Positions 33,051-40,507 of a stretch of DNA of 64,000 nucleotides are shown here, piece by piece; the first letter of the stretch is position 1, and every line of letters begins with the position of its first letter. This stretch comes from Candidatus Altimarinota bacterium (GTDB taxonomy: Bacteria; Patescibacteriota; Gracilibacteria; BD1-5; UBA6164), in contig JAOARJ010000002.1 in assembly GCA_025210615.1 (NCBI GenBank), forward strand, positions 1-64,000, read 5' to 3'. Below the pieces are notes generated by a model. That model worked only from the letters and a program-made list of their open reading frames with translations. It was not told where the DNA came from and ran no database searches. Both the position numbers and the translations under genes were made by a program.

Positions 33051-34454
33051 ATGGAAATTTTAGATTTAGAAGATTTAGAAATAATAGAAAATATTTTAGA
33101 AAACTTATCTGAAAGCGAAATTAAAGAATATATTTACAGTAAAAGTTATTATGATATAGAATTTTTTGGGGACTATTTTTTGTATCATTTTAAGAAAAAA
33201 GATTGAAAATTTATCAAATCACCGAATTTTCACAAACAGATATGGAAAAATTTAGATAGTGAAAAAAATATAAATATTATAATTCCGAGATGACATGGAA
33301 AGACAACTTCTATTATTATCTGGATGTTATGGGCTTTATTATACGAAAAACATAAAGAAATATTATATATAGCGTCTAGTAATTTATGAGAAGAAACTAT
33401 ATGAAAAATAAAAAAAGAGCTTGAAGAAAATGAGTATATTTTAGAAATATTTGGGAATTTATCACCAAATAATGAAACAAGAATAAAAAAAAATAAAACA
33501 AAAAAATGGAGACAAAAACAGCTTGAATTAACAAATTGATGTAAAATTCAAACTTTATCAAAAGGACAATCAATAAGAGGGAAGCGTCCTTCGAAAATTA
33601 TTATTGATGATCCTCAAGAAAATAGTGATGTTGAGTATAGGGAAGCGACCGAAAAATTTAATACTTGGTTTTTTACTTCTCTTTATAATACGCTTTTGCC
33701 GTGAAGTAGTGTTTGCTCAGTGGGAACAATTATCTGAAATTTATGTTTAGTAAAACACCTTCGTGATGAAAAAAAGTGGAAAACTTTAGAGTATAAAGCG
33801 ATAAAAAATAATAAGCCTTTATGGCCTTGACTATGGAATAAAAAGGCATTATTAGAAAGAAAAAAGATATTATGAACAGCTTGTTTTAATCAGGAATTTT
33901 TAAATATTCCACTATCAAAAGAAAATACGGTTATTAAAGAACAGTGGCTTAAATACTATAATAAATTGAGTTTTAAGGATTTTGAACAGGTTATTATGGC
34001 TGTTGATCCAGCGATTAAAACGAGTGAAAAAAATGATTTTACTTGAATTACAATAATTTGAGAAAAAAATAATAAAAAATACGTAATTTTTTCAAAAAAT
34101 ATAAAATTGACACCGAGAAAATTAGAGGAATATATTATAGAATTAAATAAAAAACATAGGCCTACTAGAATAATACAGGAATCAAATATTGAAGTGAAGT
34201 TACTTGAAGATTTAAAGAAAAAATGATTGCCAATTATGTGAGTTAGGGCGAATAAAGATAAATATTCTAGACTTCTTGAAGTGTCAAATTTTTTGGAATA
34301 TGGGGAAGTATTTTTTAGGGGAGAAAAAGATGAGGAATTATGCTACCAGCTTACGAATTTCCCTGATATAAAACATGATGATTTATTGGATAGTTTTGTT
34401 TATTGTTTGAATTATTTTAATAGTGAAAATAATAACAAAATAGTTTTAATATAA
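33051..34454 (+). CDS. Phage terminase large subunit
   Basis: 467 residues. ATPase: NIIIPRGHGKTTSIII (Walker A-like, Arg 80 to Thr 85, a Gly encoded by TGA), LYIASSN, Walker B KIIIDDPQ; nuclease: MAVDPAIKTSEKNDFTGITII (metal-binding Asp), IIQESN and the final KHDDLLDSFVY. These are the Terminase_6/RNase H-type packaging-enzyme motifs. No portal, capsid, tail or integrase gene is found within the window, so this terminase is orphaned. Uses TGA as Gly, so it is long established in, or adapted to, this host code. Confidence 0.9.
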
Positions 34455-34493
34455 AAAGGCGAGGATAGTTGAAAAAAAGCAGGCTATCCTCGC
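34453..34493 (-). terminator. Terminator of the candidate RNA
   Basis: GCGAGGATAG (34459-34468) and CTATCCTCGC (34484-34493) form a perfect 10-bp stem; on the minus strand it is followed by CTTTTTAT. The T-run overlaps the stop codon of the terminase gene. On the plus strand the hairpin has no T-run, which assigns it to the minus-strand transcript. Confidence 0.85.
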
Positions 34494-37862: not shown

Positions 37863-39014
37863 TTAATACTTAACTGGTTTTTCTCATAGTTTTTCCCAAA
37901 AATCTTTTCTAAATTCTTCATATTCTCAGGCGTTTATAGCCTTTTTTGCTTTTCCAGTAAGCTCTAATAAAAAGTATAAATTATGATAAGAAAGCATACT
38001 TAGGCCCAACATTTCATTTTCTCTATATAAATGTCTTAGATATCACTTTGTGTAATTTTGGCACACCTTACAATTACACTGCGAATCTAAAGGTGATTTA
38101 TCTTTTTCATAAATTTTATTTTTTATTCTAATTTTTCAGTGAGTTCAAAACGCAACTCCGTGGCGTCATAATCTAGTAGGTAAGACACAATCAAACATAT
38201 CTACTCATCTATAAATTCACTCAACTAAATCTTCAGGAGTTCCAACTCACATTAAATATCTGGGTTTATTTTCTGGTAAATGAGGAACTGTTACATCTAA
38301 AGTTCTCATCATATCTTCTTTACTTTCTCATACAGATAATCATCAAATAGCGATTCAAGGAGTATTTATTTCTGATACGAATTTAGCCGATTTTACTCTT
38401 AAATCGTCATAAATAACTCATTGAACTATTCAGAATAATGCTTGTTCGTGTAATCATTCTTCTAATCTTTTTTTGTTATTTTCTTCTACTCTTGTCTCAC
38501 ATCTTTTTAGCCATCTATGAGTTCTCTCCATTGCTCAAATCGCATACTCGTGAGTTGACTCTCCGGCAGCACATTCATCAAAAGCCATAATAATATCTGC
38601 TCATAAATTACTTTGGATATCCATTGCTTTTTCTGGAGTGAAAAAATGTTTACTTCAATCAATATGACTTCTAAAGTGAACACCTTCTTCTGTTATCTTA
38701 GCAAGACCAGCTTCTCACATTGAAAAAACTTGAAACCCTCAAGAGTCCGTTAAAATAGGTAATTTTACATTCATTAAATTATGTAATCCTCAGAATTCTT
38801 TTACCGTTTCATCTCACATAGTTAAATACATATGATAAGTATTTGCAAGAATAATTTGTGCTCACATTTCATCTAATTCTTCCCTTGTAATTCATTTTAC
38901 AGTGGCTTTTGTTCCTACCGGCATAAAAATTGGAGTTTCAATATTTCAATGCGGAGTGGAAAAAACTCAAGTTCTTGATTTTCAATCTTTATTTATAACT
39001 TTATATTCAAACAT
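37863..39014 (-). CDS. tgt: tRNA-guanine transglycosylase
   Basis: 383 residues, normal length. Motifs: PIFMPVGTKATVKG, QIILANTYHMYL, ILTDSGGFQVFSMG (catalytic Asp, adjacent Gly), FDECAAGESTHEYAIGAMERTHRW, LVGIYRGVDMFDCVLPTRL, and zinc ligands C-x-C-x2-C ... H near residue 320 (CNCKVCQNYTKGYLRHLY). It exchanges guanine 34 for preQ1 or queuine in GUN-anticodon tRNAs. No queuosine-synthesis neighbour in the window. Confidence 0.95.
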
Positions 39015-39038
39015 TTTTTTAAAATTTATATTATATTT

Positions 39039-39140
39039 AATGTCGCGCCTTCGTCGCGTCATTAAGGGCGAAAAATTTTTTTCAAAAATAATTAAGAAAA
39101 ATTTTTCGCCCTTTGCGGAGCGAGTAAAACTCGCTCCGCA
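39039..39140. repeat. Three abutting GC-rich hairpins (REP-like element)
   Basis: Three inverted repeats abut exactly: 39039-39063 (9-base arms, one mismatch), 39064-39113 (17-bp perfect stem AAGGGCGAAAAATTTTT), 39114-39140 (11-bp perfect stem TGCGGAGCGAG, 5-base loop). The sequence is far richer in GC than its surroundings. It lies between the stop of rseP (39149) and the start of tgt (39014), both on the minus strand. There is no T-run typical of a terminator. It looks like a mobile REP or palindromic element, or an intercistronic RNA-stability element. Confidence 0.8.
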
Positions 39141-39148
39141 ACACTAAA

Positions 39149-40507
39149 TTAACTTCAGATAATTTGCATAATATCTTTATATGCAATCAGTACTCACAGT
39201 AATATTAATGCGAAAAAGAAGAATAAATGTGTTATCATTTCAAATTTTGCGTTTACGATTTTTCTTTTGAATAATTTTTTTCATATAGCGTCTATTGTCA
39301 TAAATAAAAATCTTCATCAGTCTAAAGCAGGTATTGGTAATAAGTTAAATACTCATAAATTTATACTTATAATAGCCATTAAAATTATCATAAAAACAGC
39401 TCATTGTGATAGAGTTTTTGATACTAGATTAACAACTCATATTGGTCAACTAACGCTTTTTAAAGCTTCTTGTCTTTCTTCTTCATTTTCTGGACTTACT
39501 AATTTTCTAACTAAACTTCATAGTGCTTCAAAAGTTAATAAACTTTGGTTATAAGTTTCTTTTGTTCACATTTTTAATGCTTCAATAGGTCAATACTTAT
39601 ATTCAAAATTTTCATCAAATTCTACATTTGGAGAAATATAACTATTTATTTTTCACTCAGTATTAATCGTAACTTTTAGTTCAATAGGTTCGCTTTTTAT
39701 ACATTCACATCAAGGTTTATAGTCAGGATTTGGTCTATCTAAGAAAAAAGTTAACTGCTTATTTGGATTATTATTTATTACATTTGTAAAATCTTCATAA
39801 TTATTTATATTTTTATCTCAAATTTTAGTTACAATATCTCATAATTTTATTCAAGCGTCCACAGCTGGTCAAGTTTCTAAAGGACTTAAAAATACTCCAG
39901 GTTTTTCTATTATAAGTCAATCTTTTTTAGCTTGCTCAAAAGTAGGAATCATTTTTACATCTAAATCAGTAGGGATTTTTGTATTAATTCAGATAGGCTT
40001 TACTCAAGCCATAAATAATCCTGAAAAAATCAAAATAGCCAATACAAAATTCATAAAAACTCAAGCTAGAATAACTGTTGCTTGAGCGTAAAATGTTTTA
40101 TTGACTAAACTTTCTCAGCTTTTATTTTCTTCTATGATTTTCTTTATTTCTTTTTTATCGCTGACAGGAATTTTTTCTCATCTTTTATCATAAATATCTT
40201 CGTTATTTCTTATTTTGTTTTCAATTTCTTCATCTGATAATTTTTCTCATTTTTCATTATATAAGTCAAAGAAGGCTAAATTTTCTCACGCCATTTTCAC
40301 AAATCATCAAAGCGGAACCCAATTTAAAGTATACTCTGTTCATTTTTTATCTGTAAATAGTTTTTTGGCTTTCGGCGGTATTCATAAGCCAAATTCATAA
40401 ACTTTTACTCAGAATTTTCTAGCAGACGTAAAGTGTCAAAATTCATGTATTAAAACAACAACAGTAAATATTAAAAGAGCGACGATTATTCAAAAAATTA
40501 TTTCCAT
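39149..40507 (-). CDS. rseP: Site-2 zinc metalloprotease RseP
   Basis: 452 residues. N-terminal helix with HEFGHF (HEXXH, about residues 21-26), GLGIPPKAKK, a long cytoplasmic insertion, PDZ-like region around residues 210-290 (GPAVDAGIKLGDIVTKIGDKNINNYEDF), and C-terminal NLLPIPALDGGR (second metal-binding motif, about residue 390) with helices after it. RseP cleaves transmembrane anti-sigma factors or signal peptides. TGA encodes several glycines of the active-site motifs. Confidence 0.92.

Follow-up and report, generated by a model that had tools for sequence, protein, structure and literature searches.

Dispersed arrays of abutting GC-rich palindromes at gene ends of a UGA-recoded gracilibacterial genome: a probable family of non-autonomous elements

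The window, by which we mean the whole stretch of 64,000 nucleotides analyzed here, is the beginning of a 410-kb contig (C4) in the 1.25-Mb genome of a Candidatus Altimarinota bacterium, assembled in 16 contigs and 96% complete. The genes of this contig are read through with genetic code 25, in which UGA stands for glycine and which is typical of Gracilibacteria and Absconditabacteria. In the gap between rseP and the next codirectional gene, tgt, three hairpins follow one another without any spacer (Table 1). A previous sequence-only reading had placed three abutting GC-rich palindromes between these two genes, and they are indeed present there; their abutment was also correctly described, but the stem of 11 bp that it assigned to the last of them is in fact a perfect stem of 13 bp, and the hairpin nearest to tgt carries a mismatch. 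The C-terminus of RseP is equal in length to that of its relatives, so that the array neither truncates nor lengthens rseP. On the other side of the gap, a longer tgt open reading frame, reaching 39062, enters the array and is not needed.

Table 1. Features of the rseP–tgt gap and its genes in order of transcription, followed by the positions of the hairpin arrays in each contig of the genome.
Feature	Position	Strand	Remarks
rseP (site-2 protease)	39149..40507	-	Code 25
Degenerate left terminal repeat	39142..39158	-	Weak match, by eye, to the family consensus TAARGAAGTTnTATTGAT
Short hairpin, first after the rseP stop codon	39113..39141	-	13-bp perfect stem, 3-nt loop; GCGGAGC...GCTCCGC family
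Long hairpin, second	39064..39113	-	AAGGGCGAAAAATTTTT...CGCCCTT; about 17-18 bp plus inner part
Third hairpin, closest to the tgt start	39037..39065	-	TAATGACGCG...CGCGACATTA; imperfect, one A.A mismatch, 7-nt loop
tgt (queuine tRNA-ribosyltransferase)	37863..39014	-	Next codirectional gene; start ATG at 39014
Array loci, C2	27.9 and 45.9 kb		
Array loci, C4	39, 256, 306, 328, 352, 379 and 387 kb		
Array loci, C5	5 and 28 kb		
Array loci, C6	47, 60, 65, 78, 160, 185 and 202 kb		
Array loci, C7, C8 and C11	C7 20.6 kb; C8 11.8 kb; C11 83.7 kb		
Array loci, C9	63, 76 and 90 kb		
Array loci at contig ends	C15 end; C8 and C10 starts		One locus divided between the C8 and C10 starts

The GC content, which had been described as far above that of the neighbors, is 41% at 39039-39140, whereas the 100 bases on either side have 19% and 24% and contig C4 as a whole has 24.5%; only 0.7% of the 102-bp segments are as GC-rich. 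The block folds with an energy of -57.7 kcal/mol (z -11.2) and its other strand with -54.4 kcal/mol (z -11.0), both relative to dinucleotide shuffles, none of which, out of 200, folded as well as the block. With respect to known structured RNAs, the Rfam matches of the window, and likewise those of 12 array loci, are limited to tRNAs, and a known structured RNA was rejected in the absence of any curated covariance-model match for the arrays. A canonical intrinsic terminator was likewise rejected, both in the window array, where the terminator-like match spans two hairpins and fits poorly, and among the arrays of C4, given that a T-tailed hairpin is missing from the gene end in all seven of them.

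The rseP–tgt array is one of at least 26 in the genome, each made of two to four abutting, mostly perfect palindromes. When the block was used as the query of a BLAST-type search against the genome, as the sequence-only reading had advised, the long hairpin was recovered at C5:28153 and C4:306019, each time next to more hairpins, and related copies are also found at C2:27939 and elsewhere; the hairpin family of the first stem after rseP is present at other loci as well. On C4, which was scanned exhaustively, 18 hairpins exceed the score threshold, whereas a first-order Markov sequence of equal length gives none, and the multi-hairpin blocks amount to seven loci; in the other contigs, the search relied on two patterns of seed motifs and one of the terminal repeat. 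Both C8 and C10, which probably adjoin each other, begin inside the same kind of hairpin (the GGCGCGCC type), and C15 ends just past an array. It seems that the assembly breaks at these GC-rich hairpin arrays, and therefore, the copies may be undercounted. In parallel, a near-identical sequence of about 120 bases (CTCCCTCCCGGGTGGGGCTCACTGCTTGG...) was observed at one end each of C3, C5, and C8, and it is another assembly-breaking repeat.

Concerning the anatomy of the family, the short hairpins of 23-31 nt usually have 11-13 bp and mostly 3-nt loops, and in the long hairpins of 46-50 nt, the outer stem varies and the inner part is AT-rich. The stem sequences vary among loci but recur as shared types, namely GCGnAGCCTCGC, GCGGAGCTTGAT, GGCGCGCC, GGGGCGA, and AGGGCGAAAA, and a 23-nt core, GGAGCTTGATTTTATCAAGCTCC, is found exactly, on either strand, at five unlinked loci. 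In an alignment of seven doublets, 94.8% of the cells are paired, although this fraction is partly circular because most copies were found through palindromy or palindromic seed motifs. The informative part of the pairing evidence is provided by the aligned double changes: both sides have changed, with pairing kept, in 13 of the 28 pairs, compared with 1-4 in slid controls. Two contig starts (C8 and C10) lie within a hairpin, which could hint at an assembly artefact, but we give practically no credence to that idea or to palindromes arisen by chance, since simulated sequence yields no such hairpins, the folding z is -11, and 25 more loci exist with consistent flanking genes; copy number and covariation already refute it.

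Besides the stems, well-preserved doublets between codirectional genes are framed by imperfect inverted ends, TAARGAAGTTnTATTGAT ... ATCAAAAGAAAATCCTTAT, so that a well-preserved copy, with its stems and terminal repeats, measures about 95-100 bp, which is too short to encode its own protein. Several copies have TA at both ends, and in several the TAA of the left end doubles as the stop of the host gene; at other stops, TAARGA is uncommon (on C4, 7 of 367 gene ends). When the left end was searched for without reference to the hairpins, the places with no more than one mismatch adjoined arrays in four cases out of four, and at two mismatches a previously unseen array came out at C6:47244. The terminal repeats are hardly recognizable in the window copy and in other long-hairpin copies; in the degenerate match of the window, GAAGTTA is as far from the first hairpin as in the consensus, and the match overlaps the rseP stop codon. 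Together, the sequence shared at unlinked places and the terminal repeats argue for dispersal as a unit.

Among the relatives, GC-rich abutting palindromes were absent from 400 kb sampled from four genomes, which showed only ordinary A/T-flanked hairpins, and the element was not seen at the tgt of relatives. The pattern of the 23-nt core was found, within the GTDB r220 contigs, only in two Marinomonas and one Crocosphaera, matches that we take as chance, and in none of the viral contigs. Presence in other genera was rejected, given that the GGAGC...GCTCC counts in 60 relatives and the matches listed in four correspond to coding-region chance; the intergenic DNA of other genera cannot be aligned with that of the present genome. 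Because the sampled relatives are without the element and the core pattern occurs only in three unrelated bacteria, the element is restricted, as far as the data reach, to the present lineage. The sequence-only reading had named, as the result that would speak against a mobile palindrome, a single copy conserved in relatives as part of the rseP–tgt intergenic region, and the opposite was found, with 26 loci here and none found in relatives; a single-copy regulatory element of rseP–tgt is excluded by the same two facts.

In 12 genomes of the same family, rseP and tgt are parted by a gene of about 200 codons, whose sequence reads as that of an HD-domain gene; a further relative, G009, is without it. 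The query that detects this gene at the loci of the relatives does not find it in the present genome, and its relocation was rejected for lack of a match elsewhere in the genome. The array thus lies in the slot where the 12 relatives have the HD gene, and since this gene is gone, the arrays may mark sites of gene loss. In G009, the rseP–tgt gap is occupied by another hairpin, about 64 bp long (GGGTAAACACATAGGTTTACCCCTAC...), which lengthens the rseP frame by several codons and may be a further dispersed palindromic repeat.

The placement of the arrays was determined at 23 loci, 18 of them in codirectional gaps, five in convergent gaps, and none in divergent ones. The distance from the stop codon to the first hairpin is 5-24 nt at 22 of these loci and 71 nt at the remaining one, and each of the 17 tandem arrays tested falls within the stop-proximal half of its gap (Monte Carlo p 0.0005). 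Between convergent genes, the blocks occupy most of the gap and end 5-19 nt from the stop codons, with one overlapping the facing stop, and three of the five have an A/T-flanked hairpin with a T-tail. The genes upstream code for ABC transporters, MutS, NUDIX, DNA polymerase A, a tRNA synthetase, and a glycosyltransferase, besides ruvB, dnaK, and rseP (these three from translations), and being functionally unrelated, they rule out a regulon of related genes.

This placement raises the question of whether the blocks are intrinsic terminators or 3'-end protectors belonging to the organism itself and devoid of a U-tract, kept by selection on structure and sharing sequence via gene conversion rather than transposition. 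Every measured copy is indeed 3' of a stop codon, nearly all within 24 nt, the convergent gaps are mostly filled by blocks, three of them with the T-tailed hairpin, and the stems are preserved by paired changes; furthermore, clusters of at least two hairpins within 80 nt of stops, many of them lacking a U-trail, have been reported to act as terminators in 13 bacterial genomes (PMC8355165), and all of the 23 measured loci fall within this distance. On the other hand, such clusters are defined functionally by RNA-seq and have no common sequence or terminal repeats, whereas the clusters here have both, and independent terminators are not expected to have identical stems and flanking terminal repeats. 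Also against it, the majority of the blocks lie between codirectional genes without a U-tract, the seven blocks of C4 have no T-tailed hairpin at the gene end, and the sampled relatives have ordinary A/T-flanked hairpins only. We regard this explanation as unlikely.

Regarding the mover of the dispersed element, the genome showed no match to Y1_Tnp (PF01797), the domain of RAYT, in a search that was positive in five control genomes, and no match to the IS630-type DDE_3 (PF13358) or to rve (PF00665); therefore, the mover is absent, belongs outside these families, or lies in an assembly gap. The sequence-only reading had listed, among other options, a REP/REPIN-type mobile palindrome and had called for a search for its Y1 transposase. 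The dispersed extragenic palindrome was found, but the strict REP/REPIN identity falls, given that neither the Y1 domain nor the GTAG or CGTC foot tag was found: in the seven-doublet alignment, the feet are TTGAT/GCG and TA/GG, and GTAG occurs only within the stem in two copies. The likeness to REP, BIME, and REPIN sequences with RAYT (PMC2817692, PMC3116915, PMC3733652) lies in the palindromes of 20-40 nt, paired, extragenic, and downstream of coding regions, and GTAG REPs also have termini providing the stop codon of the flanking ORF (PMC3733652), while the differences, besides the tag and Y1, are the TA-ended terminal repeats and the tens, instead of hundreds, of copies. It could still be argued that these are true REP/REPIN elements whose RAYT, a Y1 HUH transposase, is missing through the incompleteness of an assembly of 16 contigs, two of which begin inside an array. 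This seems very improbable to us, considering the success of the same search in the control genomes, the absence of the foot tag, and the TA-ended inverted terminal repeats, which suit a DDE-type MITE better.

Taking all of this into account, the arrays probably constitute a lineage-specific, dispersed, and non-autonomous palindromic family, MITE-like at its ends and REP-like inside, of which the trio in the window would be a partly degraded copy. They seem to behave like MITE or REP elements without being REPs in the strict sense. As in the bacterial MITEs RUP, Correia/NEMIS, ERIC, and the Rickettsia palindromic elements (PMC2229807), the copies are around 100 bp, non-coding, and located mostly beside genes, with strong RNA secondary structure, TA ends, and inverted terminal repeats that are imperfect but recurrent, and weak or absent in the window copy. 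In contrast to those MITEs, the interior here consists of two or three separate, abutting, and mostly perfect GC-rich hairpins with variable stems, and no parental transposase was found with the three domains searched.

The inverted ends and the TA at both of them suggest that this MITE-like family inserted into TA dinucleotides with duplication of the TA, by means of a transposase that would have been provided from elsewhere or since lost. Copies would then persist where they are least harmful, that is, right after stop codons, in codirectional or convergent pairs. Once transcribed, a copy would place a block of very stable stems directly 3' of the coding region, and this block would probably shield the mRNA or punctuate it, and it may work, especially between convergent genes, as a terminator of the hairpin-cluster type. 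A role of the arrays at the mRNA 3' end is likely, and we infer both the mobility of the element and its RNA function from features of the sequence. The mRNA processing or stability element of the sequence-only reading is in this sense compatible with the data, as is termination, as a secondary role of the hairpin arrays; ERIC and NEMIS elements have been reported to change mRNA stability (PMC2229807). A more far-reaching interpretation would be a modular palindromic class in code-25 Gracilibacteria-like bacteria, in which hairpin modules are swapped and copied from one gene end to another, the terminal repeat supplies the host stop, and the blocks are the main 3'-end structures of the genome, spreading without a resident transposase; we consider it distinctly doubtful.

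In architecture, the closest look-alikes come from the mitochondria of fungi and sponges, whose double and triple hairpin elements (PMC2800124) are also GC-rich in AT-rich genomes, intergenic, lineage-specific, and with no known transposase, although those are organellar. Small mobile palindromic elements are known elsewhere but apparently have not been described in the present bacterial group; searches of an open-access library turned up no paper that links CPR or Patescibacteria to MITE or REP elements. In streamlined CPR genomes, few repeats are thought to be present. A hairpin family at the gene ends of a UGA-recoded bacterium would be a direct system in which to study the persistence of non-coding palindromes in the absence of a resident transposase, and it would let one ask whether hairpin clusters lacking a U-tract end or protect transcripts.

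Two further observations concern the surroundings of GC-rich hairpins. At about 160 kb of C6 (L052, upstream of 1450), an array comes after a long region that has no clear gene and includes a tRNA-like T-loop sequence, GTTCGAACTC; this region may be a structured RNA gene, although Rfam gave no match to it at the gathering threshold. In the window, positions 33051-34454 code for a protein of 467 amino acids resembling, by eye, the large subunit of phage terminase, and directly after this gene, at 34459-34493, there is a GC-rich hairpin, GCGAGGATAG...CTATCCTCGC; gene and hairpin together are a possible prophage remnant.
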